From: an uncultured Tateyamaria sp.
GTDB lineage: Bacteria > Pseudomonadota > Alphaproteobacteria > Rhodobacterales > Rhodobacteraceae
Length of the DNA: 51,951 bases
Assembly (NCBI GenBank): GCA_905480645.1
Contig: CAJQRC010000053.1
Span: forward strand, 1 to 51,951
Direction of reading: 5' to 3'
Within the stretch, counting starts at the first letter, position 1. Every line of letters starts with the position of its first letter. A model generated the notes under the pieces. It did no database searches and was not told the origin of the DNA. It saw nothing but the letters and a program-made list of their open reading frames with translations. Of the stretch, positions 5,557 to 51,139 are shown piece by piece. A program made the translations under genes and the position numbers.

Positions 5557-6159
5557 TTATACCCCTGCAGGGTTCTCAACATCGCGACCTAATCTAGCTA
5601 AATCCGAGTATCTGTCGCCTATACGATGGTGGGGGCGCCCTCGGGTGGCTGCACCCAATGCAACAACTAGTTCGTTCACATCAGGCGCATCATAGATTGA
5701 AAACTGTACTGTCAAATAATGCGAACGTCGGCCTGTATCATGTTTGTCCATCAGTGGAATTTGAATTTGTGTATTGGCTGGACCCCGCGTGTTTGTGAAA
5801 CCCAAGTAACTTTTAGCGTCAACTGCCTCACGATAGAAGTTACCAAATTGCAAGGTATGAATTAAAGCAGAGGCATGCTCGATTTCACAGCTCGTGCCTG
5901 CTATGCAGGCTTTCCCATATGCTTCTATAGCTTTTCCAGATCCTGCCAGCTTGATTAAACGATCTGATAATATTTTTCCTAAAATAGGTGCCATACGTTG
6001 AATTTCTGGCTGTAAATCTTCCACATAACCGCGATTTGCCCAAGGGTTTGCAACTACAGCTGCCACTCCTATCATGCGCAGTGTAGGATTTGATGGCCGA
6101 CCGCCTTCAGAATGAATATCTTCATCAAATGTGATTACTTTGCGCAATTCGGGAAGCAT
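5557..6159 (-). CDS. DUF1185 'amino acid synthesis' family protein
   Basis: A 200-residue protein of the DUF1185 (AA_synth) family. It has the characteristic start EGGRPSNPTLRMIGVAAVVANPWANRG and the middle segment AYGKACIAGTSCEIEHASALIH. Length is normal for the family. No biochemical activity is established, despite the family name. The ATG at 6159 is preceded by a good GGAG. It is the last gene of a leftward operon: RidA, alpha/beta hydrolase, CoA-transferase/flavin-reductase fusion, then this gene 12 bases on. The company it keeps suggests a step in breakdown of an N-containing ring or amide rather than amino acid synthesis; that is inference. Confidence 0.85.
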   Translation of the reverse strand: MLPELRKVITFDEDIHSEGGRPSNPTLRMIGVAAVVANPWANRGYVEDLQPEIQRMAPILGKILSDRLIKLAGSGKAIEAYGKACIAGTSCEIEHASALIHTLQFGNFYREAVDAKSYLGFTNTRGPANTQIQIPLMDKHDTGRRSHYLTVQFSIYDAPDVNELVVALGAATRGRPHHRIGDRYSDLARLGRDVENPAGV

Positions 6160-6171
6160 TATTTTCTCCTG

Positions 6172-8268
6172 TTAGATTTGGTATTTGTGGTTTCCAGCGA
6201 GGGTGTGAACCACTCCTTCCACCTCTGTTCCATGGTAAATGCCAAAGGTGCCATAACGATTTTCTTTTGCGTATCTTTGCAGTAGCGACCGTTCGGCATC
6301 ATCAACAACTTTATCAAGAGGCAGTGCATTGAGGTCGTAAAATCTCAATCCATTGATTGCATTGCCTTCCGCCTCTCCGTGATAAATAATTCGTTGCGCA
6401 CCTGTCGATGTTACTTGGTATACGGCATAGAGCTGATTTATCGCTGACTTAAGCCCTTTATTGATCAAGGCTTGGCTAAGGGCACCTACTGAGTGGGCAT
6501 TTGGCAAAGTTATACTACCGTCTGACTTTTCAACAAGCAGTAATGTATTTTTGTATGCTAAAACTGCACCTATGGTGACATTGCCAGTTGTCGCCGCATC
6601 CGTCACTGCGCGATCTAATCCAATATCAAAATAAGCCCCTTTGTAGTAGCCTAGTGGTTTGCCATCAGTCATCTCAAGGTCAATCACTCTCCCAATTAGT
6701 ATGATGTGATCGCCAGCGTCTACAAGCCTGTGTTGCGCACAACTAAAATTTGCTAAAGCACCATCAATTAGGGGTACATTTTGTTCATTGTAATGCCACG
6801 CGGCGTTATCAAATTTATCTGCTGAACGTGACGCAAAAAGACCAGAAATTTCTCGTTGATCATCTGCAAGAATGTTGATTGCAAAGTATTTGGCTTTGAT
6901 GAAGCTCTCACAGGATAAAGCAGTTTTACTAATACAAACTAGTAAAAGTGGAGGATCAAGTGATACAGACGTAAAGGAATTTGCTGTGAATCCACGAGGT
7001 ATACTATCATCTTGGCGGGTTGTAACAACTGTGACACCTGTGGCAAACCGACCAAAAGCATCCCGTAAGTTTTTTATCGTTTTAGGATCTATTGGCTTGG
7101 TTGGGATAAGTTCGTCGAGTATTTGGGCGTCAGCACCTAAGACTGGTGGCGCTGTTAGCTCGCCATGATTATGTGCTCCGAAGCGCAATGGATTAGCTGC
7201 AACGATCCAAGGCTTTTCATTTGGAAACGGAGTATTAATCTTTGCCAGCATTTTTCGAGCCGCTGTGTGTGGGTCACGTTTTATATCGGCAATAGTGTTC
7301 AATGGACCAAAGGGCACTTTTCCACCTAGGGTCTTTGTTAGTTCACTTTTACTCCGTTTCGATGACCATGCAGAAACAATTTCATCTACAACGGTAGCAT
7401 TTGTAGCACGATTTGCCCTTGTCGCAAAGCGGGGGTCCGCAGCAAGTTCTGGATGATCCATCAGTTTTGCGAGCTTTTGCCAGAAAGCATCGTCTACAAT
7501 ACCAAGCGCAATGTAACCGTCTGAGGCAGGATAAAGCCCAAAAGGACTAAGAAAGGGGTGACCGTTGCCTTCCGGCCCTGGAACTTGCTTTGTGATGTCA
7601 TGTTGATACACCATGCGCTCACAAAGTGAGATCATCGCATCATACATTGCCACATCAACAAATTGACCTTTCCCAGTTGCCTCAGCTTCACGAAGTGCCG
7701 CCATGATACCAAAAGCCATCATCATACCGGCAAATATATCACCCACACCGGGGCCTGTTTTTGTTGGGCTATTTGCATCGGCTCCTGTAATTGACATTAG
7801 GCCACCTATAGCCTGAGCGACGACATCATATGACGGCCAATCGGCATATGGACTTTTACCAGAACGCGGGTCGCCATATCCGCGTATTGCAGCGTAGACG
7901 AGTCTGGGGTTGTCGGCTGCGAGCATTTCATATGCCAGTCCCAGTCGGTCCATCACGCCAGGACGAAAGTTTTCAACAATAACATCCGCTGTTGCTGCCA
8001 AAGCTCGAAATTGAGTTCGACCAAGGTCGGACTTGAGGTCAATTTGGATACTTTTTTTACCCCGATTTAAACTAATAAAATAGCCGGCCCAGTCTTGATC
8101 TGTGTCATCTTCTCTGAACGGACCGTTACCGCGACTTGTATCACCCGAACTACTTTCAATCTTTATTACTTCTGCTCCATGATCGGCCAGATGCATTGTA
8201 CAATATGGCCCTGATAACATGCGGCTTAAATCAATTACGCGTAGGCCTTTGAGGATTTTTGTGCTCAT
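6172..8268 (-). CDS. Fusion of class III CoA-transferase (CaiB/BaiF) and flavin reductase
   Basis: A 698-residue two-enzyme fusion. Residues 1 to about 390 are a family III CoA-transferase: start LRVIDLSRMLSGPYC, NRGKKSIQIDLK at about 69-80, VENFRPGVMDRLG, and a likely catalytic Asp at 177 in GVGDIFAG. Residues about 398-550 are an HpaC/NtaB-type flavin reductase: FGRFATGVTVVTT, GFTANSFTSVSLDPPLLLV, and GYYKGAYF near the end. Residues about 560-698 form a further alpha/beta-looking domain like the tail seen in TgnA-type reductases, though I cannot name its fold. The reductase part would supply reduced flavin to the monooxygenase at 11238. The transferase could activate the substrate or a ring-opened product with CoA. 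The start overlaps the hydrolase stop by four bases. Confidence 0.88.
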   Translation of the reverse strand: MSTKILKGLRVIDLSRMLSGPYCTMHLADHGAEVIKIESSSGDTSRGNGPFREDDTDQDWAGYFISLNRGKKSIQIDLKSDLGRTQFRALAATADVIVENFRPGVMDRLGLAYEMLAADNPRLVYAAIRGYGDPRSGKSPYADWPSYDVVAQAIGGLMSITGADANSPTKTGPGVGDIFAGMMMAFGIMAALREAEATGKGQFVDVAMYDAMISLCERMVYQHDITKQVPGPEGNGHPFLSPFGLYPASDGYIALGIVDDAFWQKLAKLMDHPELAADPRFATRANRATNATVVDEIVSAWSSKRSKSELTKTLGGKVPFGPLNTIADIKRDPHTAARKMLAKINTPFPNEKPWIVAANPLRFGAHNHGELTAPPVLGADAQILDELIPTKPIDPKTIKNLRDAFGRFATGVTVVTTRQDDSIPRGFTANSFTSVSLDPPLLLVCISKTALSCESFIKAKYFAINILADDQREISGLFASRSADKFDNAAWHYNEQNVPLIDGALANFSCAQHRLVDAGDHIILIGRVIDLEMTDGKPLGYYKGAYFDIGLDRAVTDAATTGNVTIGAVLAYKNTLLLVEKSDGSITLPNAHSVGALSQALINKGLKSAINQLYAVYQVTSTGAQRIIYHGEAEGNAINGLRFYDLNALPLDKVVDDAERSLLQRYAKENRYGTFGIYHGTEVEGVVHTLAGNHKYQI

Positions 8269-9065
8269 TTAGTGGTTATCAGTTCACTTAAAAAATTGGT
8301 CAGGGGCCTATTAATAGCTTTTGGGTCCTCGGCAAGTGCCATATGACGTAGTCTTGGTAATATTACTAATCGCGACCCGGTAATTTCAGAGGCTATCGCC
8401 TGCGACATTTCGGGGCCATTACCATGATCCTCGGTCCCGGTAATTACCAATGTGGGGCAGGAAATTGGCGGTGATGGTGCTACAATCTCATCAATACCAT
8501 CAGCGAGAACTTGGTAGGCCTTATGATATGTGGTAATGTCATTGGCGGTTACCCAACCTCTTACTGTATCCATCATTTGCGGATTGTCTTGCCTGAATTG
8601 GTCAGTAAACCATCGGTCTAATGCAGCCTCAACGGTTGATTGCGGCCCCTCATGCCTGGCTTGCGCAACACGTTTGAGAATTGCTCGTTGTGCTTCAAGG
8701 GTTCTTCTATGCGGTGAGTGAAGGATAATTAGCGCATCTGTTTTTTTGGGAAAATCTTGTGCAAAACGCCGTGCAATCATGCCGCCCAATGAAAATCCCA
8801 AAATCGTGGCCGTTTGTATATTACAATAGTCAAGCATCTCAACTAGCTGTTTCGAAAATAATGACAGGCTGGGGTTGCTAGGAGGTGATATAGTTAGACC
8901 ATGGCCATAAAGGTCATATGTTAAAACTCGGTATTTTTGGGCTAAAGTAGGACTGGTCCACTGCCAGCAATCCTGGTTCAAACCTAATCCGTGAATCATG
9001 ACAACAACTGGCCCATCAGATGGACCTATAAATTTAAATGCTGTTCCATTCAGATCCTTAAACAT
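8265..9065 (-). CDS. Alpha/beta hydrolase (TgnD/RutD-like)
   Basis: A 266-residue alpha/beta hydrolase. Visible features are the oxyanion HGLGLNQDCW, the nucleophile elbow GFSLGGM with Ser at about residue 92, a cap region, the acid Asp in ITGTEDHGNGP and the catalytic His in LRHMALAEDP. Its place next to flavin reductase, flavin monooxygenase, RidA and aldehyde dehydrogenase genes resembles TgnD, which in the trigonelline pathway hydrolyses the ring-opened N-methylformamido succinate, and also RutD of uracil breakdown. I took the ATG at 9065, which overlaps the RidA stop by eight bases; an in-frame TTG lies two codons upstream. A start so buried implies translational coupling. Substrate not proven. 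Confidence 0.82.
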   Translation of the reverse strand: MFKDLNGTAFKFIGPSDGPVVVMIHGLGLNQDCWQWTSPTLAQKYRVLTYDLYGHGLTISPPSNPSLSLFSKQLVEMLDYCNIQTATILGFSLGGMIARRFAQDFPKKTDALIILHSPHRRTLEAQRAILKRVAQARHEGPQSTVEAALDRWFTDQFRQDNPQMMDTVRGWVTANDITTYHKAYQVLADGIDEIVAPSPPISCPTLVITGTEDHGNGPEMSQAIASEITGSRLVILPRLRHMALAEDPKAINRPLTNFLSELITTK

Positions 9066-9456
9066 CGGCAATGGGGTGGTATGCGATCACTTCTACCTCG
9101 ACGCGAACATCTACCAACAGATCGCTAATAACTGCGGAACGAGTAGGTGGCTCAACTGGAAAGTATTCTCCATAAATTAAATTAAAACCAGGAAAATCAT
9201 TTCGGTCACGAAGCCAAACCATCGACTTTATGACGTCGTCGCGCGTGCATCCAGCAAGTTCTAAAGTTGCGGTGATATCATCTAACACTGCTCGCGTCTG
9301 ATCTTCTACAGAGCCATCGGTCATGGGCGCACCGTCTCTCATTGGAATTTGACCCGTAAGGTATACAAAATCACCTGCTCGGATGGCTCGGGAAAGGGAT
9401 AATATCCGTCCGCCAATCTCTAATGATCCACCAATAATTTGTTTTTTGTTCACCAA
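9058..9456 (-). CDS. RidA/YjgF/RutC-family protein
   Basis: A 132-residue RidA-family protein, typically a trimer that hydrolyses reactive enamines and imines. Marks are SLSRAIRAGDFVYLTGQIP, the active-site Arg in PPTRSAV and the end VEVEVIAYHP. It starts with TTG at 9456 (GGAG eight bases upstream) or GTG at 9453. It is the first gene of the leftward operon and shares a short divergent promoter region with the aldehyde dehydrogenase. In the present context it would clear an enamine or aminoacrylate-like product after ring opening, as RutC does in uracil breakdown; this is inference from neighbours. Confidence 0.87.
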   Translation of the reverse strand: MVNKKQIIGGSLEIGGRILSLSRAIRAGDFVYLTGQIPMRDGAPMTDGSVEDQTRAVLDDITATLELAGCTRDDVIKSMVWLRDRNDFPGFNLIYGEYFPVEPPTRSAVISDLLVDVRVEVEVIAYHPIADV

Positions 9457-9598
9457 TGTTTTTTCTCCAATAATATGAACCTGCCCTTATCACAGATGGC
9501 AGATTGTGGATTTTTCGACACACGATGTCGTATTTTCTGGTACGTGCTGAATGAAAGCGGACATGAATGGAAAAATTACAAACGAGGAGTCTCGCCAA
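9457..9598. promoter_or_regulatory. Divergent promoter region with inverted repeat 9516-9530
   Basis: This short stretch lies between the RidA gene (leftward) and the aldehyde dehydrogenase gene (rightward) and must carry both promoters. It contains an inverted repeat CGACA-CACGA-TGTCG at 9516-9530. The right half and following bases, GATGTCGTA at 9524-9532, recur exactly at 11113-11121 upstream of the monooxygenase gene. The site is a candidate operator for a shared regulator, possibly the AraC-type protein at 14015. Promoter boxes were not assigned. Confidence 0.4.
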
Positions 9599-11080
9599 GT
9601 GACTGACGTTACAAGCTACAAAATGCTGATTAATGGAGATTGGGTTGATGCTGCTGATGGACGCTTTTTTGAAAGCGTTAACCCGTCAGATGGAAGAATA
9701 TGGTGTCGCGTTCCAGAGGCAACAGAGGAAGATGTAAACCGTGCAGTTATTGCAGCGCACGACGCGTTCAGTGTTGGGCCATGGGCTTCTATGACACCCA
9801 CAGAGCGCGGCAAGAAGTTGCGCGCACTAGGTGACTTATTGGCTGAATACTCCGAGAGCTTAGGGCGGACAGAGTCGCTCGATACAGGAAAAATGTTGAA
9901 AGAAACTCGCTGGCAAGCCCAATACATTGCTGAGTTTTTCCATTTTTTTGCTGGCTGCGCTGACAAAGTTAGCGGTGAGACTCTACCCATCGATAAACCT
10001 GACATGTTTGTTTTTACCAAGCGAGAACCCTTAGGAGTGGTTGCTGCTGTGGTGCCTTGGAATTCACAACTATTTTTGGTGGCAGTGAAAATTGGTCCAG
10101 CCTTGGCGGCAGGAAACACAGTGGTTCTCAAGGCGTCTGAGCATGCCAGTGCCGCGATGCTGGAATTTGGCAAGTTAATTGAAAAAGCGGGTATTCCGCC
10201 TGGGGTCGTCAATATTGTTACTGGTCATGGAGAGCCTTGTGGGCGCGCTTTGACTGGACATCCATTAGTTGCCCGTGTTTCTTTTACAGGTGGCCCAAAT
10301 GCGGCGCGGCATGTTTTGGAAAACGTGAAACGTAACTTTGCAGAGGTTTCTCTTGAATTGGGGGGTAAGTCTCCATTCATAGTTTTCGATGATGCTAATA
10401 TCGAAAGCGCAGTTAATGCATCTATAGCAGGAATATTTGGCGCGACAGGGCAAAGTTGTGTTGCTGGTTCTCGCCTATACTTACACGAAAGTATTGCAGA
10501 TAATTTTTTGGAACAGATGATTACACTGACGAATAAAATTGTGCTCGGTAACCCATTAACTGATGAAACTCAAATGGGGCCGCTATGTACGTTGGCTCAA
10601 TTAGAACATATTGAACGGGAAGTAGCCTATGCACAGGAACAGGGGGGTAGGGTACTAGTTGGTGGCAAACAACCGGAAGGCCTATCGGGTCTGTTCTATG
10701 AGCCCACGATTATTGAATGTCCACGTCAAGATTTACGGATTGTAAATACAGAGTTGTTTGGACCAGTCCTATCAGTCCAGCGTTTTAAAACTGAAGACGA
10801 GGTGCTTGCTCTTGCCAATGACAATGAGCATGGTTTAGCAGCGGGCATTTTTACAAAAGATTCCGCTCGCTCCCTGAGAATGGCTAATTGTGTACGAGCA
10901 GGTATTGTTTGGGTAAATACGTATAGAGTGGTTTCTCCCATTGCTGAATTTGGTGGTGTCAAAGGCTCAGGATATGGTCGTGAAAGTGGTTTTCAAGCCA
11001 TTTATGACTACACTCGGCCTAAAACTATCTGGATGAATACTTCTGATGAACCGATGGCTAATCCTTTTGTAATGCGATGA
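9599..11080 (+). CDS. Aldehyde dehydrogenase (TgnC-like)
   Basis: An NAD(P)-dependent aldehyde dehydrogenase of about 493 residues. It shows the family start YKMLINGDWVDAADGR, the NAD-binding VVPWNSQLFL segment, the Glu of SLELGGKSPF, the catalytic Cys in GATGQSCVAGSRL and the late motif ELFGPVLSVQRF. I favour the GTG at 9599 because GAGGAG lies nine bases upstream; in-frame ATGs at 9551 and 9563 lack a clear ribosome-binding site but would give up to 509 residues. In the trigonelline pathway an enzyme of this family (TgnC) oxidises the ring-opened semialdehyde or lactol. Here it would act after the monooxygenase at 11238. It could alternatively serve betaine aldehyde or succinate semialdehyde. 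Confidence 0.87.
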   Translation: MTDVTSYKMLINGDWVDAADGRFFESVNPSDGRIWCRVPEATEEDVNRAVIAAHDAFSVGPWASMTPTERGKKLRALGDLLAEYSESLGRTESLDTGKMLKETRWQAQYIAEFFHFFAGCADKVSGETLPIDKPDMFVFTKREPLGVVAAVVPWNSQLFLVAVKIGPALAAGNTVVLKASEHASAAMLEFGKLIEKAGIPPGVVNIVTGHGEPCGRALTGHPLVARVSFTGGPNAARHVLENVKRNFAEVSLELGGKSPFIVFDDANIESAVNASIAGIFGATGQSCVAGSRLYLHESIADNFLEQMITLTNKIVLGNPLTDETQMGPLCTLAQLEHIEREVAYAQEQGGRVLVGGKQPEGLSGLFYEPTIIECPRQDLRIVNTELFGPVLSVQRFKTEDEVLALANDNEHGLAAGIFTKDSARSLRMANCVRAGIVWVNTYRVVSPIAEFGGVKGSGYGRESGFQAIYDYTRPKTIWMNTSDEPMANPFVMR

Positions 11081-11237
11081 GTTTTGTAAGTCCAAAATCT
11101 AAACTTGGCCGTGATGTCGTAACTATTTTTGTGGTAACCAATGTTATTTTTTATCTTGGAAAATTACGGCAATTATGCATCGCTATGCTGAAAAATTTTT
11201 GTAATTCTGTAATAATAATACGCGAAAGGATTTTGAT

Positions 11238-12278
11238 ATGAAATTCCAACTTGCTGTTAATATGGAGCGTATTGACGATAGTCTGGATATGCAGGATGTA
11301 GCCCGCCACACGCTTGAAATGGTGCAAATTGCTGAAGATAGTGGTTTTGATATTGTTTGGGCTGCTGAGCACCATGCTCTTGAAATGACCATCGCTCCAA
11401 ACCCATTTCAATTACTAACATGGTGGGCAGCTGAGACCAGCCGTATTCGTCTTGGAACGGCAGTTGCTACAGCGGCTTATTGGCACCCAATTAACCTTGC
11501 GGGTGAGGCGGCTTTCACTGATCTAATCACAGGTGGAAGGTTGGAATTTGGTATCGGTTCGGGCGCGTATCAGCGAGAGTTTGACCGAATGAAGCCTGGT
11601 TTGAGACAATCTGATGGCTGGCGTTACATGCAGGAAATGCTGCCTGCCGTGCGTGAGCTATGGAAAGGCGACTACGCTCATGATGGAGAATTCTGGCAGT
11701 TTCCAGCGTCTACTTCGGTTCCCAAGCCACTTCAAAAAGAAGTTCCTGTTTGGGTTTCTGCTCGCTCGCCGATCACATATGATTATGCTATGCGCGAGCG
11801 ATGTCATGTGAATTGTTGGCCCTTTACAAGACCATTTTCCGAAGCAGAGCTATACAAGCAGCAGTTGGATGACGCTATTACTAAAGCAGACAATGGCTGG
11901 ACGCCGCGGTTTGCTATGATGCGGCATTCCTGCATTTATGATAATTTAGAGGATGGGGAAAACGCAATGAATGCTATCCGACGTTTGCTCAGCCAATTCG
12001 AAAATCTTTATCGTAATTTAGGTGATGTTAAAAATGGCTTTCCTGCATCCATTCCCCTTGAGGATCTAGAGGGCCGTGAGCAGTATGACCCTGTGATGCT
12101 TGAGGAGAATTTAATGTTTGGTTCACCTGACCAAGCTATAAAAAAATTGAAACGTTATCAGGCGTTGGGAGTGGATGAATATATTTATTATGCATCCATG
12201 GGGCTTGATCATGCGTCGCAGCAAAAATCATTACGAATGTTTGCAAACGAAGTTATGCCTGAATTTAAAGAAGGATAG
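11238..12278 (+). CDS. LLM-class flavin monooxygenase, TgnB (trigonelline oxygenase)-like
   Basis: A 346-residue luciferase-like (LLM) flavin-dependent monooxygenase. Start, middle and end segments resemble my recollection of TgnB, the oxygenase part of trigonelline monooxygenase: a start ending in MERIDD, EHHALEMTIAPNPF, WHPINLAGEAAFTDLITGGR, GDYAHDGEFWQFP and a C-terminus ending in EVMPEF. TgnB opens the N-methylpyridinium ring using reduced flavin from a partner reductase, which here would be the fused reductase at 6172. An AAGGA ribosome-binding site precedes the ATG. The next gene starts four bases after its stop. The exact N-methylpyridinium substrate (trigonelline, homarine or another) cannot be read from sequence. 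Confidence 0.85.
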   Translation: MKFQLAVNMERIDDSLDMQDVARHTLEMVQIAEDSGFDIVWAAEHHALEMTIAPNPFQLLTWWAAETSRIRLGTAVATAAYWHPINLAGEAAFTDLITGGRLEFGIGSGAYQREFDRMKPGLRQSDGWRYMQEMLPAVRELWKGDYAHDGEFWQFPASTSVPKPLQKEVPVWVSARSPITYDYAMRERCHVNCWPFTRPFSEAELYKQQLDDAITKADNGWTPRFAMMRHSCIYDNLEDGENAMNAIRRLLSQFENLYRNLGDVKNGFPASIPLEDLEGREQYDPVMLEENLMFGSPDQAIKKLKRYQALGVDEYIYYASMGLDHASQQKSLRMFANEVMPEFKEG

Positions 12279-12282
12279 GGAA

Positions 12283-13086
12283 ATGTCAGACGGCGTAAAA
12301 GTTCACCGCGAAGGTCATGTTTTGGAAGTAGTTTTGGATCGTGGTAAGGTGAACGCTATTGACGTATCCACGTCTCAGGCTTTGGCCGCTGCGTTTCAGG
12401 AGCTTCATGAAGATAAAGATTTGCGATGCGCTATTCTGACTGGTGGTGGTGAAAAGATTTTCTCAGCTGGATGGGATCTGAAGGCGCTGAACAACGGTGA
12501 GATGCAACTTGATAATTGGTGGGAAGCTGATGAATACGGTTTCGGTGGATTTACAGGACTAACTGAAAATTGGAGCCTAAACAAACCTGTCATTGCGGCA
12601 ATTAATGGATTGGCAATTGGCGGAGGCTTTGAAATGGCAATGAGTTGTGATCTGTTGATTGCAGCCGATCATGTAGAATTTGGTCTGCCTGAAATGCCTT
12701 TGGGGATAGTTCCTGATGCAGGCGCTCTGCAACGTTTGCCACGCCGTATTCCGCATAATATTGCAATGGAGATGTTTTTACTTGGTCGTCGTATGACAGC
12801 GATAGAGGCTGCGCATTACGGGCTCGTTAATAAGGTGGTACCCAAAGAACAATTAATGGATGCTGCAAGGGAGTGGGCGGCGTCTATTTCTTGGTCTGCT
12901 CCTTTGGCGATGCAATCAGTAAAAGAAGTTCAGCGCGAGATTGACTGTGTTCCGCTTGAGGCTGCTTTTCAAAAAATGCGTACTGACCCGATGCCAATTT
13001 ACCGTAAGATGCTAAAATCTGCTGATGCTGCAGAAGGTGTTGCTGCATTTATTGAGAAGCGCGAACCAAATTTCAAAGGTGAATGA
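12283..13086 (+). CDS. caiD: Carnitinyl-CoA dehydratase / enoyl-CoA hydratase (CaiD-like)
   Basis: A 267-residue crotonase-fold protein that closely follows E. coli CaiD as I recall it: GKVNAIDVST near the N-terminus, EKIFSAGWDLKAL, NKPVIAAINGLAIGGGFE and LPEMPLGIVPDAGALQRLP. The two catalytic Glu positions (GGFE and LPE) are present. CaiD interconverts crotonobetainyl-CoA and L-carnitinyl-CoA. The ATG at 12283 follows an AAGGATAGGG ribosome-binding site, so in-frame starts further upstream inside the monooxygenase gene are rejected. Its end overlaps the carnitine dehydrogenase start, which supports a carnitine role. Being in one operon with a ring-opening monooxygenase leaves open a role on another enoyl-CoA. 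Confidence 0.85.
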   Translation: MSDGVKVHREGHVLEVVLDRGKVNAIDVSTSQALAAAFQELHEDKDLRCAILTGGGEKIFSAGWDLKALNNGEMQLDNWWEADEYGFGGFTGLTENWSLNKPVIAAINGLAIGGGFEMAMSCDLLIAADHVEFGLPEMPLGIVPDAGALQRLPRRIPHNIAMEMFLLGRRMTAIEAAHYGLVNKVVPKEQLMDAAREWAASISWSAPLAMQSVKEVQREIDCVPLEAAFQKMRTDPMPIYRKMLKSADAAEGVAAFIEKREPNFKGE

Positions 13087-14033
13087 TGTATTCTGATCCC
13101 TCTAAAATTAGGCGTGTTACAAGCATTGGTGCGGGTCCTATTGGTGCGGGCTGGGCAGCGCATTTTCTGGCGCGTGGGTATGATGTCACCGCATATCTTC
13201 ATGACACTTCTGAGACAAAAGCGTTCAATTTAATTCTTAAAACTGCATGGGTCAGTCTTACAAAATTGGGGCTGGCTGAGGGAGCTTCTCTTGCTCGTCT
13301 AAGCATTGTTACTGATCTTGAAACCGCATTGGATAATGCTGATTTTGTGCAGGAAAGTGCTCCTGAGCGATTAAATATCAAACAGGATTTGTACAAAAAG
13401 ATGGGGGATATTTTACCTGAATCCGTGGTGATTGGTTCTTCTACATCCGGTCTAACTATGACGGAAATTCAGGCATCATGTGCCTCACCTGAACGCTGCG
13501 TTATTGGTCATCCATTTAACCCCCCATATTTGTTACCGTTAGTGGAAATTGTAGGCGGCGATAAAACTGCAATTGAAGCGGTGTCATGGGCGGGAAAATT
13601 TTATGAAATTGCGGGCAAAGCGCCCTTGATAATGAAAAAAGAAATTCCTGGTTTTGTAGCTACTCGATTACAAGAAGCATTATGGCGAGAGGCTTTGCAT
13701 ATGGTGGCCAATGGTGAAGCCACGCCAAAGGATATAGATATTGCTCTGATGAACGGTCCAGCCCCACGAATGGTCAGTCAAGGCCAGTGTCTAGCTTTCC
13801 ACGTCGCGTGTGGGGCTGGGGGAATGGCCACCAATTTGGATCAGTTTGGACCAGCGCTCAAATTACCATGGACCAGATTGGAGGCTCCTGAATTAACCAG
13901 CGAACTACGCAATCGTATGGTAGATGGATGTAACGCTATTGCAGGAGAACATTCTTTTGAAGATATGGCTGCTCAGAGAGATCGTGAGATTGTGGCCGTG
14001 CTCAGTGCTCTGCGTCAGTCACGGCTTGGCTGA
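13083..14033 (+). CDS. lcdH: L-carnitine 3-dehydrogenase (3-hydroxyacyl-CoA dehydrogenase family)
   Basis: A 316-residue NAD-dependent dehydrogenase matching bacterial L-carnitine dehydrogenase, which makes 3-dehydrocarnitine. Visible features are the Rossmann motif GAGPIGAGWAAHF at the N-terminus, FVQESAPERLNIKQDLYKK, GSSTSGLTMTEI, the catalytic HPFNPPYLLPLVE and EIPGFVATRLQEALWREALH. It lacks the C-terminal thioesterase fused in some relatives. It starts inside the stop of the hydratase gene. The product would be cleaved by the beta-keto acid enzyme encoded at 15205. Its 3' end overlaps by 19 bases the end of the convergent AraC-type regulator gene. Confidence 0.9.
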   Translation: MMYSDPSKIRRVTSIGAGPIGAGWAAHFLARGYDVTAYLHDTSETKAFNLILKTAWVSLTKLGLAEGASLARLSIVTDLETALDNADFVQESAPERLNIKQDLYKKMGDILPESVVIGSSTSGLTMTEIQASCASPERCVIGHPFNPPYLLPLVEIVGGDKTAIEAVSWAGKFYEIAGKAPLIMKKEIPGFVATRLQEALWREALHMVANGEATPKDIDIALMNGPAPRMVSQGQCLAFHVACGAGGMATNLDQFGPALKLPWTRLEAPELTSELRNRMVDGCNAIAGEHSFEDMAAQRDREIVAVLSALRQSRLG

Positions 14034-15085
14034 ACATGCTTGGAGTTCTTTTTTAACGTTGATAGAAAATCAGAAAGAGATCCTGGCCAACTGGGCGCAG
14101 TTTCATTTACTGGCCAAGCTTCGCGATACTCAGAGGGGCGACGACCAAAAAATTTTCCAAATGAAAATGCGAAATGAGAAAGAGTGTTAAACCCAGAAGC
14201 AGTTGCAATCTCTCGCACTGTTAGGCTGGTTGAGATCAACAGTAATCTGGCATTTTGTAATCTCCTTAGAAGCCCGAATTGTACCACTGTGCAACCCACA
14301 TGCTTCTTAAATTGGCGTTCTAGCTGTCGTTGGGAAACTTCGAGAGTTTTTGCGAGTTCTGGGACGCTTAAAGGTTCCTCTATATTTTCTTCGATCATAG
14401 TCATAGCCTCACGGACTAATGGCAACATTGTTTTAGTGCTGCGTCCCATTGTGCTGCGTTGCGGAGAGTTGGCGTTACGAATTGGATGATGTAGCATCTG
14501 GTCTGCTATTTCACCTGAAAAGCTGCTGCCATGCGTTTTCTCTATTAGACGTAGCATTAAATCGACACCAGCCAACCCGCCTGAACAGGTTATAATTTTA
14601 CCTTTTATAGTAAACAGGCTCTCTTGCACGTCTACTCGATCAAAGGACTCTCGAAAACCGCTTAGCCATGACCAATGAGTTGTTGCAGGTTTACGATCGA
14701 GTAGGCCTGCACGGGCTATAATGTAGCATCCAAGCTCAACGCCACAGATACTTTCACCAGCTCGAGCGCGTTTCCGTAACCAAGCCGTTAAGGATCGGTT
14801 GTCGTAGTGTTCGGTCCCCCAACTTCCTAAAACGAATATAAAGTCAGCCGATGGCAGGTTTTCTAGGTCCGTCCTGACTATAGTTTTCATGCCGTTACTT
14901 GCTATGATCGTTTCGTTGTCAAAAGAGATGATATCCCATGAAAAAATGGGTTCAGACGCCAGATAGTTTGCGATGCGCATCGTCTCAATCATAGTTATTA
15001 GAGTGGTGACATTAAAGCGTGGCACGACAACGAAGATAGCATGATTGGCGGCGCGTGTTATCTGGTGGGTGGTGTCAATTTGCAT
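14015..15085 (-). CDS. GlxA/CdhR-type AraC-family transcription regulator
   Basis: A 356-residue regulator with an N-terminal class I glutamine amidotransferase-like (DJ-1/PfpI) domain (FVVVPRFNVTTLITMIETMRIAN, later CGVELGCYIIARAGLL) and a C-terminal AraC helix-turn-helix pair (LSVPELAKTLEVSQRQLERQF, then VREIATASGFNTLSHFAFSFGKFFGRRPSEYR). This layout is that of CdhR and GbdR, regulators of carnitine and glycine betaine catabolism. I chose the ATG at 15085, since the longer N-terminal extension has no family-like sequence. It is divergent from the carnitine operon at 15205 and convergent with lcdH. It probably activates one or both arms on sensing carnitine or a breakdown product. Confidence 0.85.
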   Translation of the reverse strand: MQIDTTHQITRAANHAIFVVVPRFNVTTLITMIETMRIANYLASEPIFSWDIISFDNETIIASNGMKTIVRTDLENLPSADFIFVLGSWGTEHYDNRSLTAWLRKRARAGESICGVELGCYIIARAGLLDRKPATTHWSWLSGFRESFDRVDVQESLFTIKGKIITCSGGLAGVDLMLRLIEKTHGSSFSGEIADQMLHHPIRNANSPQRSTMGRSTKTMLPLVREAMTMIEENIEEPLSVPELAKTLEVSQRQLERQFKKHVGCTVVQFGLLRRLQNARLLLISTSLTVREIATASGFNTLSHFAFSFGKFFGRRPSEYREAWPVNETAPSWPGSLSDFLSTLKKNSKHVQPSRD

Positions 15086-15204
15086 TGCTAAATTCCAATG
15101 AAAGAAGTGCGTTTTTTCGCCACTGTAAGCACAAATACGTCGTATAATCGATAACTTTTTTGATGGAATCCGCGCCAATCTGGAAAAAAAGGAGACTGCA
15201 CCTG

Positions 15205-16095
15205 ATGAACTACGACGTAGTGCTTACCTGTGCTGTTACTGGAGCGGGTGACACTGCAGGCAAAAGCCCACATGTTCCTGTTACGCCGAAAGAGATAGCG
15301 GACGCGGCAATTAATTCTGCTAAAGTGGGTGCAACAGCTGTACATATCCATGCACGCGATCCTGAAACAGGTTTAGGATCGCGTGATCCCAAACTTTTCA
15401 AAGAAATCGTTGATCGCATACGTGATAGTGACACGGATGTTATCATTAATGTCACTGCCGGTATGGGGGGCGATTGGGTGTCAATCCCTGATAACCCCGC
15501 CATGCCCGGTCCTGGTACCGATATGATCGGACCCGAAGAACGGTTAATTCATGTTAGAGAATGCATGCCAGATATTTGCTCTCTTGATTGTGGAACGTTG
15601 AACTTTTCAGACACAGATATGATCTATATTTCCACCCCACCAACGCTTCGTAAAATGGCTAAATTGGTGCAAGAATGGGGCGTAAAGCCCGAGCTTGAAG
15701 TTTTTGATTTGGGTCACATTCGTTTTGCAAAGGCGATGATAGATGAAGGCCTTATTGATGCACCGCCGATGTTTCAAATTTGCCTTGGAATTCCTTGGGG
15801 CGCTGAGCAAACGGTTGAAACTATGGCTGCCATGAAAGCACAATTACCCGCCGGTGCAAGCTGGGCTAGTTTTGGCATTGGGCGTGGACAAATGCCGATG
15901 GCGGCGGCTTCGGTCGTGTTGGGCGGTAATGTGCGCGTTGGATTAGAGGACAACATTTATTTGGAGCGCGGTGTGCTGGCTTCCAATGCGCAATTGGTTG
16001 TAAAAGTACGTGAAATAATCGAGCGTATAGGGGGTCGTATCATGAGCCCACAAGAAGCACGAAATAAACTGAAACTGCGGGGTGCTAATGGCTGA
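15205..16095 (+). CDS. Beta-keto acid cleavage enzyme (dehydrocarnitine cleavage)
   Basis: A 296-residue BKACE-family (DUF849) protein, a zinc TIM barrel that splits a beta-keto acid with acetyl-CoA. Features are the start [11 protein letters not shown], the zinc ligands in [17 protein letters not shown], and [19 protein letters not shown]. With lcdH beside it, the likely reaction is 3-dehydrocarnitine plus acetyl-CoA to betainyl-CoA plus acetoacetate, as in known carnitine clusters. The ATG at 15205 has GGAG ten bases upstream. It opens a long operon, and its stop lies eight bases inside the ABC ATPase gene. No hotdog thioesterase for betainyl-CoA is seen in the window. Confidence 0.9.
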
Positions 16096-17089
16096 ACCAT
16101 TAGAGATAGGCAGTTTACAGATTCGCAATGTTTCAAAGATTTTTGGGACTTTTAAAGCGGTAAGTGATGTAAGCTTAAACGTCCAAAAGGGCGAATTTTT
16201 AACGCTTTTAGGGCCGTCTGGTTCCGGCAAAACCACGCTGTTGATGATGCTTGCAGGTTTTTTGGATGTTTCTGAGGGAGATATAGCGCTAGACGGGGCT
16301 TCTATAGCGGGAGTGCCAGCAGAAAAGCGTAACTTTGGCATGGTTTTTCAAGGCTATGCTTTATTTCCACATATGAATGTCCGTGATAATATTGGCTATG
16401 CCTTAAGTGTGCGGAATCGGGCTGTTGCGGAGATCGAAGCTTGTGTGGATGAAATGCTTGATCTGGTGCAATTGCAGCAATTTGCGGACCGCAAGCCCGG
16501 GCAGTTGTCCGGTGGTCAACAACAGCGTGTCGCATTGGCGCGAGCGTTATGTTTTGCACCACCAGTCTTATTATTGGACGAACCACTTGGTGCATTGGAT
16601 AAAAAGCTTCGAGTCGAGGTGCAGGAGCAGCTTAAGGTCATTCACCGACGGATTGGAACAACGTTCATTTACGTTACCCATGATCAAGAAGAAGCTCTTT
16701 CGATGTCTGATCGTATAGTGATTATGCGTGATGGTGCTATCGAACAAGTCGGGACGCCAAAGGAATTGTACGAACGGCCAAAAAACAAATTCACTGCTAG
16801 CTTTCTTGGAAAATCGAATTTCATCCACCACAACGATAAAGTTTATGCATTGCGCCCTGAAAAAATTGATCTCATTGTGGGTGTTGATCACCAAGATGCT
16901 CGGATGAATGGGACAGTGAGCTCCATCACCTATTTTGGCTCTATGCAGCGGGTTATTGTAGACACAAAAGAAGGTCAAAAAATAGAGATTGATATTGATG
17001 TCTGGCGCAACGCTAATGAAGTAAAGCTTGGTGATGCTGTTGATTTACTTTGGGCAGATGAAGCTGCCGTCGAATTACAGATGGGGTGA
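16088..17089 (+). CDS. ABC importer ATPase (PotA-like)
   Basis: A 333-residue ATP-binding subunit of a polyamine/quaternary-amine type importer. It shows Walker [10 protein letters not shown], the Q-loop in [10 protein letters not shown], signature [15 protein letters not shown], Walker [12 protein letters not shown] and the switch His in [10 protein letters not shown], followed by a C-terminal TOBE-like region. I took ATG 16088; a GTG two codons upstream is possible. It is the first of four transporter genes set between the dehydrocarnitine cleavage enzyme and the acyl-CoA dehydrogenase, so the imported solute is probably carnitine, gamma-butyrobetaine or a related betaine rather than spermidine. 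That substrate call is inference. Confidence 0.9.
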
Positions 17090-17166
17090 ATGCCCTAAAT
17101 GAAGAGCGCTCTAAGGCGTCACACCAAAGAAGCGGGAAAGTTCCCGAACCCAATAGGAGAAATGAA

Positions 17167-18273
17167 ATGCACGATAAACAATTCATGAAAGAGACACTGC
17201 AAGACAGTGCAAAGGCCTATCAAGAAGGCCGTCTGGATCGCCGCACGTTTCTAGCGCTTTGCGGTGCCTCAGGTATTGCGTTGACTGCGGTAATGGCAGG
17301 TGATGCTGAAGCCGCCGCGGATCATGTTGTGATGTGGAATTGGGGTGGTCAGTCTGAAGAATGCCATAGCTCTGCGATTGGTGATGCATTTACTGCTAAT
17401 ACTGGTAAAGGCTTGAAGTTTGATACCTCTGGTCCTCTTGAAGGTAAGATTAAAGAGATGGTCGACAGTGGAAATGTTACAGCTGATGTTGCAGATGGAG
17501 ATCTCTTTAATGCAGTATCTCTTGGGCCAACAGGCCACCTCGAACCGATCGATTATTCTGTTGTGTCTAGAGATAAAACACTGCCGGGGTATGCGTTGGA
17601 ATTTGGAGTATCTATTATTCTTTATGGTTACGCGTTTGTTTATGACACAAAAGCTTACGGTGATAATCCACCGCAAAATTGGGCAGATTTCTTCGATACG
17701 GCTAAGTTTCCGGGTATGCGCTCGCTTTATAAATGGGCTAACGGTTCTCTAGAAGCTGCATTGATGGCCGATGGTGTTGCGGGTGATGCGCTTTATCCGC
17801 TTGATATGGACCGCGCTTTAACCAAAATTCAATCCATTAAAGAGGATAGTCTCTATTGGGGCTCTGGATCTGAGGCGCACTCCATGGTTGTCAATGGTGA
17901 GGTGTCTATGGGCATGATTTGGCAAAACCGTGGCCGTAACATCGAAAATGACACAGATGGTCGGTACAAGCTTGTTAACAATCAAGCCATGGCAATGCCT
18001 GGAGCGTACATTGTACCAAAGGGCAACCCGGCTGGATCCTCCGTTATGCAGTTCATTGCAACAGCGCAAGAAGTGCCTGCTCAACTGGCCTTGCTTGATT
18101 GTCTTGGAATGACACCATCTAATCCAGAAGCGTTTGGTCAAATTCCTGAAGATCAACAGGATTATGCGATTACTTCAGCCAAAAATATCGATAAAATTGT
18201 ATATAATGATCCTGAGTGGTGGGGGAAAAATGGCGGTGATGCAGTGAACGCGTTTCTAGACGCTATCAGTTAA
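17167..18273 (+). CDS. ABC importer solute-binding protein with Tat signal (PotD-like)
   Basis: A 368-residue periplasmic solute-binding protein. The N-terminus carries a twin-arginine export signal, with LDRRTFLALCG at about residues 25-35 followed by a hydrophobic stretch and an AEAAADH cleavage zone. The mature part has the polyamine-binding-protein pattern: VVMWNWGG, then YGYAFVYDTKAYGDNPPQNWADFFD, and WQNRGRN. The ATG at 17167 is chosen because AGGAG lies seven bases upstream; the in-frame GTG at 17086 would add 27 residues with no family likeness. A strong intercistronic hairpin follows the stop. Ligand is inferred from context to be a betaine. Confidence 0.87.
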   Translation: MHDKQFMKETLQDSAKAYQEGRLDRRTFLALCGASGIALTAVMAGDAEAAADHVVMWNWGGQSEECHSSAIGDAFTANTGKGLKFDTSGPLEGKIKEMVDSGNVTADVADGDLFNAVSLGPTGHLEPIDYSVVSRDKTLPGYALEFGVSIILYGYAFVYDTKAYGDNPPQNWADFFDTAKFPGMRSLYKWANGSLEAALMADGVAGDALYPLDMDRALTKIQSIKEDSLYWGSGSEAHSMVVNGEVSMGMIWQNRGRNIENDTDGRYKLVNNQAMAMPGAYIVPKGNPAGSSVMQFIATAQEVPAQLALLDCLGMTPSNPEAFGQIPEDQQDYAITSAKNIDKIVYNDPEWWGKNGGDAVNAFLDAIS

Positions 18274-18282
18274 TCTCGCTAT

Positions 18283-18311
18283 CTGGCTGCGTTGTATTAA
18301 CGCGCAGCCAG
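18283..18311 (+). terminator. Intercistronic hairpin after the solute-binding protein gene
   Basis: Perfect nine-base stem CTGGCTGCG (18283-18291) with CGCAGCCAG (18303-18311), extendable through GTT/AAC with a small bulge. There is no T-run after it, so it is more likely a 3'-protecting or partial-termination hairpin than a full terminator. Such a hairpin between a binding-protein gene and its permease genes usually raises the binding protein relative to the membrane subunits. Confidence 0.6.
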
Positions 18312-18332
18312 AAATTTCATAATGGGATCTCT

Positions 18333-19181
18333 ATGCAAACGTTTAACCGAAGTATTCATCCTGGATGGTTGATTATAGCGCCTCTTTTGGTGCTGGTTGT
18401 GACATTGTACTTGGGCCCAATCATGAACATCCTATGGTTGAGTTTCACTGACCCTGAGCCGGGTCTGGGTAATTACGCCAAATTAGGAGAAAGTGACGCA
18501 CTTTTGCGTATCGTTTGGACTACGGTTCGCATTTGCATTGTCACTACTTTATTTAGCGTCGGGCTAGGGTATTCAATTGCTTATGCTATGGTGCATTGTG
18601 ACCAGCGTCAAAAAAATTATATGCTGACGCTGTTACTTGTGTCGTTTTGGATTTCTATTCTAGTGCGGACCTTTTCTTGGCTGATGCTGCTGGGACGTAA
18701 AGGATTGGTCAACGGGACACTTGAGAATATCGGCCTAATAGCTGAACCCATCGCATTCATGCGCAATGAATTAGGTGTATTGATTGGCATGATCCATTAC
18801 ATGATACCCTATGCGGTGCTTCCTTTGCTTGTGTCGATGCAGTCTATCGATACCCGTATTATGGATGCTTCGCGTAACTTAGGGGCGAGTGGCAGTCAAT
18901 CTTTCTTGCGCATTTACTTGCCATTAACCCTCCCAGGGTTGGTTGCGTCGACGCTTCTTGTTTTCATCCTCAGCCTTGGGTTTTACGTCACGCCTGCAGT
19001 TTTAGGTGGCGGCAAAGTATTAATGGTCGCTGAGTACATCTCGGTACAACTTCTGGTTACGCTTAAATGGGGTACAGCAGCTATGTTAGCTGCGCTAATG
19101 CTTTTCGGTGTGCTAGCGATGCTGTGGCTGATGTCAAAGTTTATGAAATTAAGTACTGTATTCGGAGGAACGACCAGATGA
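18333..19181 (+). CDS. ABC importer permease 1 (PotB-like)
   Basis: A 282-residue inner-membrane permease with about six hydrophobic helices. The first is near residues 10-33 (PGWLIIAPLLVLVVTLYLG) and the last is near the C-terminus. The cytoplasmic coupling loop carries the EAA-like segment MDASRNLGASGSQSFLRIYLP at about 185-205. This arrangement is that of PotB/PotH permeases. The stop overlaps the next permease's ATG (ATGA). It forms the membrane channel with the second permease, energised by the ATPase encoded at 16088. Confidence 0.9.
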   Translation: MQTFNRSIHPGWLIIAPLLVLVVTLYLGPIMNILWLSFTDPEPGLGNYAKLGESDALLRIVWTTVRICIVTTLFSVGLGYSIAYAMVHCDQRQKNYMLTLLLVSFWISILVRTFSWLMLLGRKGLVNGTLENIGLIAEPIAFMRNELGVLIGMIHYMIPYAVLPLLVSMQSIDTRIMDASRNLGASGSQSFLRIYLPLTLPGLVASTLLVFILSLGFYVTPAVLGGGKVLMVAEYISVQLLVTLKWGTAAMLAALMLFGVLAMLWLMSKFMKLSTVFGGTTR

Positions 19182-19975
19182 CCTCGGGTTTTTTCTTTAA
19201 ATTTAACCGTGTGGGCGCATGGATACTGATGCTTTTTCTAGTGACGCCCGCGTTGATTTCAATTCCTGTATCCTTAACGCCTAAGCGTTTTTTGTCGATG
19301 CCTAAGGGTGAATTGTCTTTGCGGCATTTTGAAAAGTTGTTTACGTCTGAACAGTGGCTCTCCAGTTTTTTTCAGAGTGGAGTGATTGCTGTTTCAACTT
19401 CCTTATTGGCAACTTTTCTAGGTACGATTTGCGCGATTGGCCTTTGGCGAGTATCTTCAAAACTTTCAGAACTAGTACGAGCTTTTCTTTTATTACCCCT
19501 GATTATTCCACAGATTATTTCAGCTATGGCTTTTTACCGTCTTTGGATACCTCTAGGTTTGCTTGACAGTTATGCAGGGTTAATCATCGCGCATACAATA
19601 CTTGCTGCTCCTATGGTTTTGATCACGGTCAGCGCATCTCTTGCCTCCTTCGATCCCAAGCTAGAGCAAGCTTCGAAAAACCTTGGAGCGTCCAATTGGA
19701 CCACCATGCATCGCGTGATACTACCATCAATTAAACCGGGTGTTTTTGCTGGCGCACTATTCGCATTCATCCTCAGCTGGGACGAGATTGTTGTGACGCT
19801 GTTTATTTCAAAATATAGCGTCTACACTCTCCCGCGCCGGATGTGGAACGGTATTCGCGAAAATACTGACCCAACTGTTGCTGCGGCTGCCGTTGTGTTG
19901 ATTGCGATCACCATTATCGCCTTCATGATCTTTGTGATCCTGTCCCGTCGCAATACTAGATCTAAGGACGCATAG
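19178..19975 (+). CDS. ABC importer permease 2 (PotC-like)
   Basis: A 265-residue permease of the PotC/PotI type. It has several hydrophobic helices and the coupling loop LEQASKNLGASNWTTMHRVILP with the following SIKPGVFAGALFAFILSWDE, a hallmark of the family. The ATG at 19178 overlaps the upstream stop and has GGAGG in front; the longer in-frame start at 19067 lies inside the first permease gene and is rejected. It closes the transporter set; the acyl-CoA dehydrogenase follows 12 bases later in the same operon. Confidence 0.9.
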   Translation: MTSGFFFKFNRVGAWILMLFLVTPALISIPVSLTPKRFLSMPKGELSLRHFEKLFTSEQWLSSFFQSGVIAVSTSLLATFLGTICAIGLWRVSSKLSELVRAFLLLPLIIPQIISAMAFYRLWIPLGLLDSYAGLIIAHTILAAPMVLITVSASLASFDPKLEQASKNLGASNWTTMHRVILPSIKPGVFAGALFAFILSWDEIVVTLFISKYSVYTLPRRMWNGIRENTDPTVAAAAVVLIAITIIAFMIFVILSRRNTRSKDA

Positions 19976-19987
19976 AAGAGGCTTAAA

Positions 19988-47346: not shown

Positions 47347-47910
47347 TTAAGCACACGATTTTGCAGCTATCATAAATGCATGATGTAATGTTGCAGCGGA
47401 AGCACGTGGGCCGAAAATACGTATGTGTGTTTGATATTTCAGACATAATACAAAACAGCTTAATTGGTGTATAGTTGTTCGTCGTGCTTCCCCGACTTCC
47501 ATTTTTCGAATGGGAGCGGCGCAAAGCCTTTCCATGACTTCTGAAACTCCAGAGCCGGTTAGATCAAAACATACCCAAGCCCCTGATTGTTCAGTAATTG
47601 AAGCAGTATTTAAAAAAAATGATTTAAGATTATTGGCAAGAAGCTCATGTGTACTTTTAGGAGCTTTGATCATCCACTGGTCAGGAGAAATCCAAAAACC
47701 GACCTCTGTATTATCTAAAGTTGCTTGCCCTGGCTTTGGTATGTCACCAAGTATTTTTTTGATTTTGTCACGGCAATCATTTTCGTATCCTTTTCGCGCG
47801 GCTACTGATGCCAGCGCTAAATCATCATTTTCGGTTATGATTATGCGCTCAAATTTATCAATGCGAGTTTCTAGCCCGCCAAGAGCAGTAATTGGTTGAA
47901 GATCATGCAC
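47347..47910 (-). CDS. mgdD: N-methylglutamate dehydrogenase subunit D / sarcosine oxidase gamma-like
   Basis: A 187-residue sarcosine-oxidase gamma-like subunit, recognised by FWISPDQWMIKAP, WVCFDLTGSGVSEVMERLCA and the ending pattern LKYQTHIRIFGPRASAATLHHAF. The gene overlaps the large subunit's stop region by eight bases. In heterotetrameric sarcosine oxidase this subunit packs against alpha at the THF-domain side. It is the last gene of the leftward four-gene operon; the call as N-methylglutamate dehydrogenase rather than sarcosine oxidase rests on the gmaS and mgsABC genes nearby. Confidence 0.8.
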   Translation of the reverse strand: MHDLQPITALGGLETRIDKFERIIITENDDLALASVAARKGYENDCRDKIKKILGDIPKPGQATLDNTEVGFWISPDQWMIKAPKSTHELLANNLKSFFLNTASITEQSGAWVCFDLTGSGVSEVMERLCAAPIRKMEVGEARRTTIHQLSCFVLCLKYQTHIRIFGPRASAATLHHAFMIAAKSCA

Positions 47911-51126: not shown

Positions 51127-51139
51127 GACACGCGTCCTC

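Follow-up and report, generated by a model that had tools for sequence, protein, structure and literature searches.

Marine plankton and animals are rich in N-methylated betaines, homarine among them, and where the betaine nitrogen ends up depends on the enzymes by which these compounds are consumed. Among described systems, one of the closest is the trigonelline (Tgn) pathway, whose monooxygenase TgnB reportedly cuts the ring at C5-C6, the product being an N-formyl-N-methyl enamine aldehyde. The annotated tgn cluster, on the Acinetobacter sp. PK01 plasmid NZ_CP094644, includes genes for a DUF1185 protein and an alpha/beta hydrolase, tgnA, tgnB and tgnC, and, farther on, a succinate semialdehyde dehydrogenase (SSADH). 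A pathway for homarine catabolism is also said to have been published (Ferrer-Gonzalez et al., 2026, Nat Microbiol 11:1531), its operon being reported as homABCDER. In this work, we describe a gene cassette at 5557-12278 of contig CAJQRC010000053.1 from an uncultured Tateyamaria sp., a stretch of 51,951 nt hereafter called the window, together with an adjoining carnitine-like module at 12283-23235. Judging from sequence comparisons, the cassette is rather likely to belong to the N-methylpyridinium ring-cleavage class; the chances are about even that it constitutes a Tgn-type pathway, based on a two-component flavin monooxygenase, for a different N-methylated pyridinium betaine, of which homarine is, tentatively, the leading candidate. 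The module is best read as a second, CoA-dependent pathway of the gamma-butyrobetaine/carnitine kind that shares the locus with the cassette, and the two together probably feed on N-methylated betaines of sea life.

The cassette consists of two divergent arms separated by 94 intergenic bases (9457..9550). On the minus strand lie the genes for an AA_synth (DUF1185) protein (5557..6159; PF06684, 223 bits), a gene type common to tgn clusters; a fusion of a family III CoA-transferase and a TgnA-type flavin reductase (6172..8268), identified by Pfam; an alpha/beta hydrolase in TgnD-type position, presumed to be a deformylase/hydrolase (8265..9071; Abhydrolase_1, 84.1 bits); and a RidA-family imine/enamine deaminase (9058..9456; PF01042, 86.6 bits). 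The plus strand carries a TgnC-type aldehyde dehydrogenase (ALDH; 9551..11080; PF00171, 527 bits) and a luciferase-like flavin monooxygenase (LLM; 11238..12278; PF00296, 171 bits), the presumed ring-cleaving oxygenase. All six cassette genes are open frames at these coordinates with Pfam scores exceeding the curated cut-offs, which bears out the flavin reductase, LLM, ALDH, hydrolase, RidA, DUF1185 and CoA-transferase listed in a first-pass annotation of this DNA. Both the reductase and the CoA-transferase are thus present, but that annotation had named them separately and they form one protein of 698 residues in a single frame, with the CoA-transferase at about residues 1-385 (CoA_transf_3, 6-380) and the flavin reductase with a C-terminal extension at about 395-698 (Flavin_Reduct, 405-549). 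Since a single frame with both parts recurs in 35 other fetched loci, the fusion is no frameshift artefact. A scan for promoters and terminators returned site counts close to those of shuffled sequence (31 vs 33.3; 21 vs 18.9).

The enzyme types TgnA, B, C and D, to which the cassette had been matched, are indeed represented by homologues that occur jointly with DUF1185 both here and in the annotated tgn cluster, the identities to PK01 being 58% for DUF1185, 27% for the hydrolase, 42% for the reductase, 37% for the LLM and 53% for the ALDH. The latter is 35-38% identical to the three other ALDHs of its own genome listed at E<=1e-80, vs the 53% to TgnC, and no second ALDH was found in the window at that threshold. 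DUF1185 has 58-61% identity to its counterparts next to annotated TgnB and on Sinorhizobium meliloti pSymA; the hydrolase is 27-28% identical to those of the PK01 and S. meliloti clusters and 62% identical to an Aminobacter copy. Residues 394-693 of the fusion align with 17-317 of the 321-residue chain 3rh7 (E 1.7e-59), which is the reductase encoded in the tgn-like cluster of S. meliloti pSymA; the LLM of that cluster falls in the TgnB clade. This PDB entry is titled merely hypothetical oxidoreductase, and the cluster itself (L130; S. meliloti 1021 pSymA 420982-446019), whose genes were unlisted in the collection used, contains GntR, DUF1185, hydrolase, reductase, LLM, ALDH, NIPSNAP-like, ABC transporter and SSADH genes.

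The phylogeny of the LLM sets it apart from TgnB. In a tree of 43 rows, 14 TgnB-clade rows, including annotated TgnB, group at 99/100 with the window LLM not among them; it is placed in a separate set of 26 rows (clade A), whose stem support is weak (86/32) and whose subsets closest to the window are well supported (2 rows at 99/95 and 3 rows at 100/97). The LLMs of a further group, B, from Agrobacterium pAt and Thalassospira, are 45-46% identical to that of the window, and their loci (L127, L128) represent a third cassette family. Moreover, one genome of the family sample (G100) carries a clade A LLM as well as a second LLM at the TgnB identity level (34%, absent from the tree). Because the window LLM lies outside the TgnB clade and this genome has both kinds, trigonelline is not the default substrate. 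The first-pass reading as a trigonelline-like pathway therefore survives in part: the Tgn-type gene set and the methylamine link stand, and TgnB-like as the identity of the LLM does not.

At the residue level, position 108 is Ser in the window LLM and Arg in groups B and C, where it is kept. Luciferase Arg107 is located at the flavin phosphate site, and by this analogy we now think that the Arg108/Ser difference probably concerns the flavin phosphate; a first reading as a change in carboxylate binding was given up. Clade A also keeps the aromatic residues W63, W194 and Y206, positions with Leu or Thr in groups B and C. An alignment-based fold model of the LLM reached a mean pLDDT of 89.6 (36.2 for the single-sequence fold). 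The closest solved folds are luciferases, with other LLMs and F420 enzymes also among the top matches at about 20% identity and the type II Baeyer-Villiger enzyme 4uwm at rank 39; such matches to a predicted structure tell nothing on the LLM substrate.

Related cassettes were collected by a genome scan, from which 80 of 199 related stretches were considered. By record names, these loci belong mostly to marine Rhodobacterales (Ruegeria, Sulfitobacter, Roseovarius, Planktomarina, HTCC2083), with further loci in uncultured alphaproteobacteria and in gammaproteobacteria, including an Olavius algarvensis worm symbiont; clade A is not strictly marine, having a member on a soil Aminobacter plasmid. 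Contig ends truncate some of the 84 clade A loci that were fetched, and absences in these counts are therefore upper bounds; 51 of the loci include the L-carnitine-dehydrogenase-like gene (DH) of the module described below and 33 do not. Across the 84, DUF1185 was present in 53, the hydrolase in 64 and the ALDH in 63, and because these partners recur, the genes are associated beyond chance. Within the 51 loci with DH, RidA was present in 31, DUF1185 in 38 and the CoA-transferase in 32. Variations in layout were also observed. In L038, L040, L057, L060 and L071, a Rieske oxygenase gene 27-31% identical to the one close to the LLM in L086 lies between the ALDH and LLM genes; the three Rieske oxygenases checked (L038, L071 and L086) were nearest to GbcA, far under its cut-off. 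In L079, L084, L085 and L088, the order is shuffled, with the LLM apart from the ALDH and CaiD genes, cassette and module still form one block, and gmaS and amt lie nearby.

Beside the observed gene content, clade, co-occurrence and methylamine linkage, we infer a substrate, the bond cut, the order of the steps and the roles of RidA and DUF1185. By homology to Tgn, the fused reductase would supply reduced flavin to the LLM, which would add oxygen beside the ring nitrogen, the ring being cut at C5-C6; the ALDH would oxidise the resulting aldehyde, the alpha/beta hydrolase would take off the N-formyl group, and RidA would aid hydrolysis of the resulting enamine or imine, with formate, methylamine and a keto acid as predicted products. 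Methylamine is the product expected from an N-methylated ring, as in trigonelline breakdown. In the case of homarine, the ALDH and the hydrolase would lead to the enamine or imine of 2-oxoglutarate, and RidA-type hydrolysis would then give 2-oxoglutarate, methylamine and formate. A cut between the nitrogen and C6, as first proposed, would leave no N-formyl group, although the end products named at that time still follow if homarine is cleaved at C5-C6. Methylamine could pass onward through GmaS, Mgs and Mgd, candidate genes for all three being present in the window; GmaS and Mgs would form N-methylglutamate and Mgd would use it. This would be in line with the participation of Mgd in homarine catabolism stated in a recent paper (PMC13390433, 2026).

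Positions 26071-51951 of the same contig form a methylated-amine and C1 island, which by inspection we take to contain genes resembling those for formate-tetrahydrofolate ligase, FolD, Tdm, Tmm, GmaS, MgsABC, Amt, DmmDABC and Mgd. By inspection, the gmaS-, mgsABC- and mgd-like genes lie 23-40 kb from the LLM, and candidate mgd/sox-like heterotetramer genes occupy 47347-51949. Elsewhere, gmaS or mgs genes were found inside 9 of the 80 unselected scan loci: they stand beside DUF1185 in L035 and L036 (Ruegeria), and the distance between gmaS and the LLM is 6 kb in L077, L078, L079, L084, L085, L088 and L105. Among loci L183-L185, which were selected for having mgsC on the LLM contig and are not part of the 9 of 80, mgsABC lies directly behind the hydrolase and thiamine-diphosphate (ThDP) enzyme genes in L183 and 12-14 kb away in L185. 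L184, L195 and L199, whose contigs have the same lengths as those of L036, L105 and L084, are very likely the same places as these, and a wider count of 14 of 110 loci, some of only about 4 kb, is not relied on. No match to gmaS or mgs was found in 15 TgnB-clade loci; FolD- and Tdm-like matches and sarcosine-oxidase-type genes are present in the tgn locus of PK01. The recurrence of methylamine-assimilation genes near the cassette in unlike arrangements supports an N-methylated substrate from which methylamine is released, with shared habitat and ancestry as possible confounders, and agrees with the early observation that methylamine-consuming enzymes are encoded alongside.

At genome level, mgsC (counted at 78% identity or more) was looked for in all 29 genomes of the family sample with a clade A LLM and, taken in listing order, in 20 of the 49 with a distant LLM only and 31 of the 217 with neither. 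It was present in 23 of the 29 (10 of the 12 with DH and 13 of the 17 without), in 13 of the 20 and in 10 of the 31; compared with the last group, Fisher tests gave p = 3e-4 for the clade A genomes and p = 0.04 for those with a distant LLM only.

The locus is larger than first noted. The span originally given, to 13086, takes in the cassette and also, unmentioned, a CaiD-like enoyl-CoA hydratase gene (12283..13086, plus strand), whose ATG sits 4 bases past the LLM stop, and the continuation to 23235 had been overlooked; the presence of the gene set observed then is confirmed. The hydratase scores 296 bits against the crotonobetainyl-CoA hydratase model NF002936, below the cut-off of 500. Its gene is overlapped by that of DH (13083..14033, plus), which likewise remains below the cut-offs of two carnitine dehydrogenase models (NF005471, 312.1 of 414 bits; NF005716, 243.1 of 592). 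An AraC/GlxA-type, GbdR/CdhR-like regulator follows on the minus strand (14015..15178; NF052371 GbdR, 239.5 bits, below the cut-off of 480), and then, on the plus strand, a beta-keto acid cleavage enzyme (BKACE; 15160..16095; PF05853, 332.6 bits); open frames for a polyamine/betaine-type ABC transporter with ATPase, binding protein and two permeases (16082..19975); an acyl-CoA dehydrogenase (19988..21148), with NCBIfam acyl-CoA dehydrogenase matches of at most 240.5 bits and merely 162.6 bits for the crotonobetainyl-CoA dehydrogenase model, all under cut-offs; and an ADP-forming acyl-CoA ligase (21145..23235; NCBIfam matches of 228-262 bits, all under cut-offs). The transporter ATPase has PotA/PhnT2 as top matches, under cut-offs, and the transporter is 33-45% identical to that of the S. 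meliloti pSymA tgn-like cluster. As for the CoA-transferase part of the fusion, it scores 125.5 of the 413 bits required by the CaiB-type carnitine model and higher, 407.8 of 700, with a mesaconate-type model, both below.

A canonical carnitine cluster, with BKACE and a carnitine dehydrogenase-thioesterase fusion, is present on another contig of the same genome (C44; L162 8970-11718), the fusion reaching 755 bits against a cut-off of 592. Since the canonical cluster is elsewhere in the genome, the module is a paralogous set and not the ordinary carnitine pathway of the cell. A plain L-carnitine cluster was therefore rejected for the window, where DH, hydratase and CoA-transferase miss the curated cut-offs. 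The window BKACE is 49% identical to the C44 copy, and both have an insert (TAGMGGD...GTDMI) and an LDCGT-NF motif, a third paralogue being without them; because these are shared, a carnitine-type beta-keto acid is a plausible substrate of the window BKACE. Another contig of this genome (C61; L168) contains a further set of CaiD, CoA-ligase and acyl-CoA dehydrogenase genes, 43%, 34% and 53% identical to those of the window.

The tie between LLM and DH was assessed in two genome samples, with p values that ignore shared ancestry and joint transfer. In the family sample (295 genomes; LLM at 59% identity or more, DH at E<=1e-80), the clade A LLM was present in 29 genomes and DH in 12, all of them within the 29 (Fisher p 7e-14); LLM identities drop from 59% to 45% with none between, and no DH match lies between E 3e-125 and 1e-80. 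In the class sample (385 genomes), with cut-offs of 57% for DH and 54% for the LLM picked after viewing the lists, all 7 genomes with DH at or above its cut-off had the LLM (present in 13; Fisher p 7e-12). Another 20 class genomes had a DH match at E<=1e-80 and below 57% identity: the two nearest (54%; G483, G473) gave no LLM match at E<=1e-95, and four others (G439, G447, G541, G705) had LLMs at 44-52%.

These figures bear on the strongest rival, which we nevertheless consider unlikely, namely that cassette and module act in sequence on a single betaine. C5-C6 cleavage would yield the skeleton of 4-(methylamino)butanoate, a compound related to gamma-butyrobetaine, on which the CoA ligase, acyl-CoA dehydrogenase, CaiD-like hydratase, DH and BKACE could act to shorten the chain. 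A fully integrated pathway for a marine betaine, in which Tgn-type oxygenolysis opens the ring and a CoA-dependent, carnitine-like route then shortens the resulting chain, appears marginally less probable still; it is suggested because the CoA-transferase and the reductase are fused, as in the 35 other loci, and DH was not found without the oxygenase in the genomes sampled. The complete overlap in both samples fits a single sequence of steps, as does the sharing of a genome when the two genes lie on separate contigs (G404, G359) or on different contigs or loci (G063, G064), the LLM, CaiD-like and DH genes being 4 bases apart or overlapping in the window. The canonical cluster on C44 would likewise leave the window set free for another task. 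Nevertheless, DH is missing from 17 of the 29 family genomes that carry the LLM, the overlap may owe something to the shared ancestry and joint transfer that the p values ignore, and the genomes of L051 and L052 keep the module at a separate locus, cassette and module each having their own AraC-type gene. Furthermore, the ring products of homarine or trigonelline should reach central metabolism without the module, and the window BKACE retains the insert of the carnitine-cluster BKACE.

Several points weigh against our preferred reading, a cassette for homarine or a similar betaine side by side with a carnitine-kind module. DH was never seen without the LLM in the family and class samples, and pathways that merely stand side by side account for this tie only if they are inherited jointly or belong to one regulon. 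The Ser108 difference may mean that even cofactor handling differs from that of the enzymes with Arg. The clade A enzymes probably do not all share one substrate, so that homarine may fit only some branches, and two family genomes (G093, G337) each have two clade A LLMs. The enrichment of mgsC may come from shared habitat or ancestry, and is also seen in genomes with a distant LLM only. In a 2021 paper, a TgnA/TgnB-type attack on homarine was judged sterically unlikely, and homarine supported poorer growth of Ruegeria pomeroyi DSS-3 than trigonelline did (PMC8269262). Finally, related clusters carry an Xsc/acetolactate-synthase-like enzyme in place of RidA and the module. Nine clade A clusters (L106, L111, L112, L183, L188, L189, L194, L198 and L200) have a ThDP enzyme related to that of L089, and in the stretches examined they gave no match to the window RidA or the carnitine-like module; the two ThDP enzymes checked, of L112 and L089, were nearest to a sulfoacetaldehyde acetyltransferase model, at 427-431 bits with a cut-off of 620.

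The next alternative, distinctly improbable in our view, dispenses with a pyridinium: the LLM would use a quaternary-ammonium compound from carnitine metabolism, for example in a Baeyer-Villiger step on trimethylaminoacetone derived from dehydrocarnitine, with the hydrolase as an esterase. The tight coupling of the LLM to carnitine-like genes is consistent with it, as are the presence of 4uwm among the fold matches and, tentatively, the clade A aromatics W63, W194 and Y206; it leaves, however, the TgnC-, TgnD- and DUF1185-type partners, RidA and the methylamine linkage unexplained. A diverged TgnABCD for trigonelline itself, which would account for the same five gene types as in the tgn cluster, was rejected as very improbable, given an LLM outside the TgnB clade at 37% identity to annotated TgnB (60-75% among clade members), the G100 genome with LLMs of both levels, and the finding that none of the 84 clade A loci, some of them cut by contig ends, has a PK01-type SSADH (TgnE) at 50% identity or more, although SSADH is patchy in TgnB-clade loci too.

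With the cassette read as a Tgn-type pathway for another N-methylated pyridinium betaine, our results describe a clade of Tgn-type monooxygenases set apart from TgnB, with its own gene set and a link to methylamine assimilation, and an unexpected genome-wide tie between the clade A LLM and a carnitine-like module. A short substrate list becomes directly testable, and we caution that the labels carnitine dehydrogenase and TgnB-like should not be adopted for this locus. Homarine, gamma-butyrobetaine and N-methylpyridinium were reported together in two cone snail species (PMC8155685), and because these three betaines co-occur there, one locus might serve several of them.

Compared with the known systems, the window shares with Tgn a cluster of homologous DUF1185, hydrolase, reductase with C-terminal extension, LLM and ALDH genes. 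It differs in having an AraC-type regulator where tgn has GntR, and it alone has RidA beside the cassette, the CoA-transferase fusion and the attached carnitine-like module; the window RidA found no match in 15 TgnB-clade loci, one of which (L131) however has an annotated RidA gene downstream. SSADH is a weak criterion for Tgn, its PK01 type being seen in L129 and L130 alone among those 15 loci. The group B cassette (Agrobacterium fabrum C58 pAt and a Thalassospira marina plasmid) also shares the reductase, ALDH, LLM, hydrolase and DUF1185, and differs in that both members have a carboxymuconolactone-decarboxylase-like gene after that of the hydrolase, the Agrobacterium one also has a NIPSNAP gene, and the RidA genes are several kb off instead of adjoining. 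The Rut pyrimidine pathway too combines an LLM, RidA, an alpha/beta hydrolase and a flavin reductase; it was rejected, as the RutC (52.3 of 169.1 bits), RutD (70.6 of 238.5) and RutF (81.3 of 254.75) models are far under their cut-offs in the window and the RutA match is weak (E about 5e-4). With L-carnitine/gamma-butyrobetaine degradation (LcdH or CdhA, BKACE/CdhC, CdhR, CaiD), the module shares gene types and the regulator family, differing in that its DH, CaiD-like and CoA-transferase parts fall under the curated cut-offs; the carnitine transporter proven in R. pomeroyi is cntTUVW (SPO2995-2998; PMC10130141). A literature search returned no title or abstract describing the cluster, a comparison that did not take in the 2026 homarine pathway paper. 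For the homarine pathway of 2026, PMC13390433 states a role of Mgd, and the window has candidate mgd-like and gmaS/mgs-like genes; our cluster may already be known as the published homarine operon.

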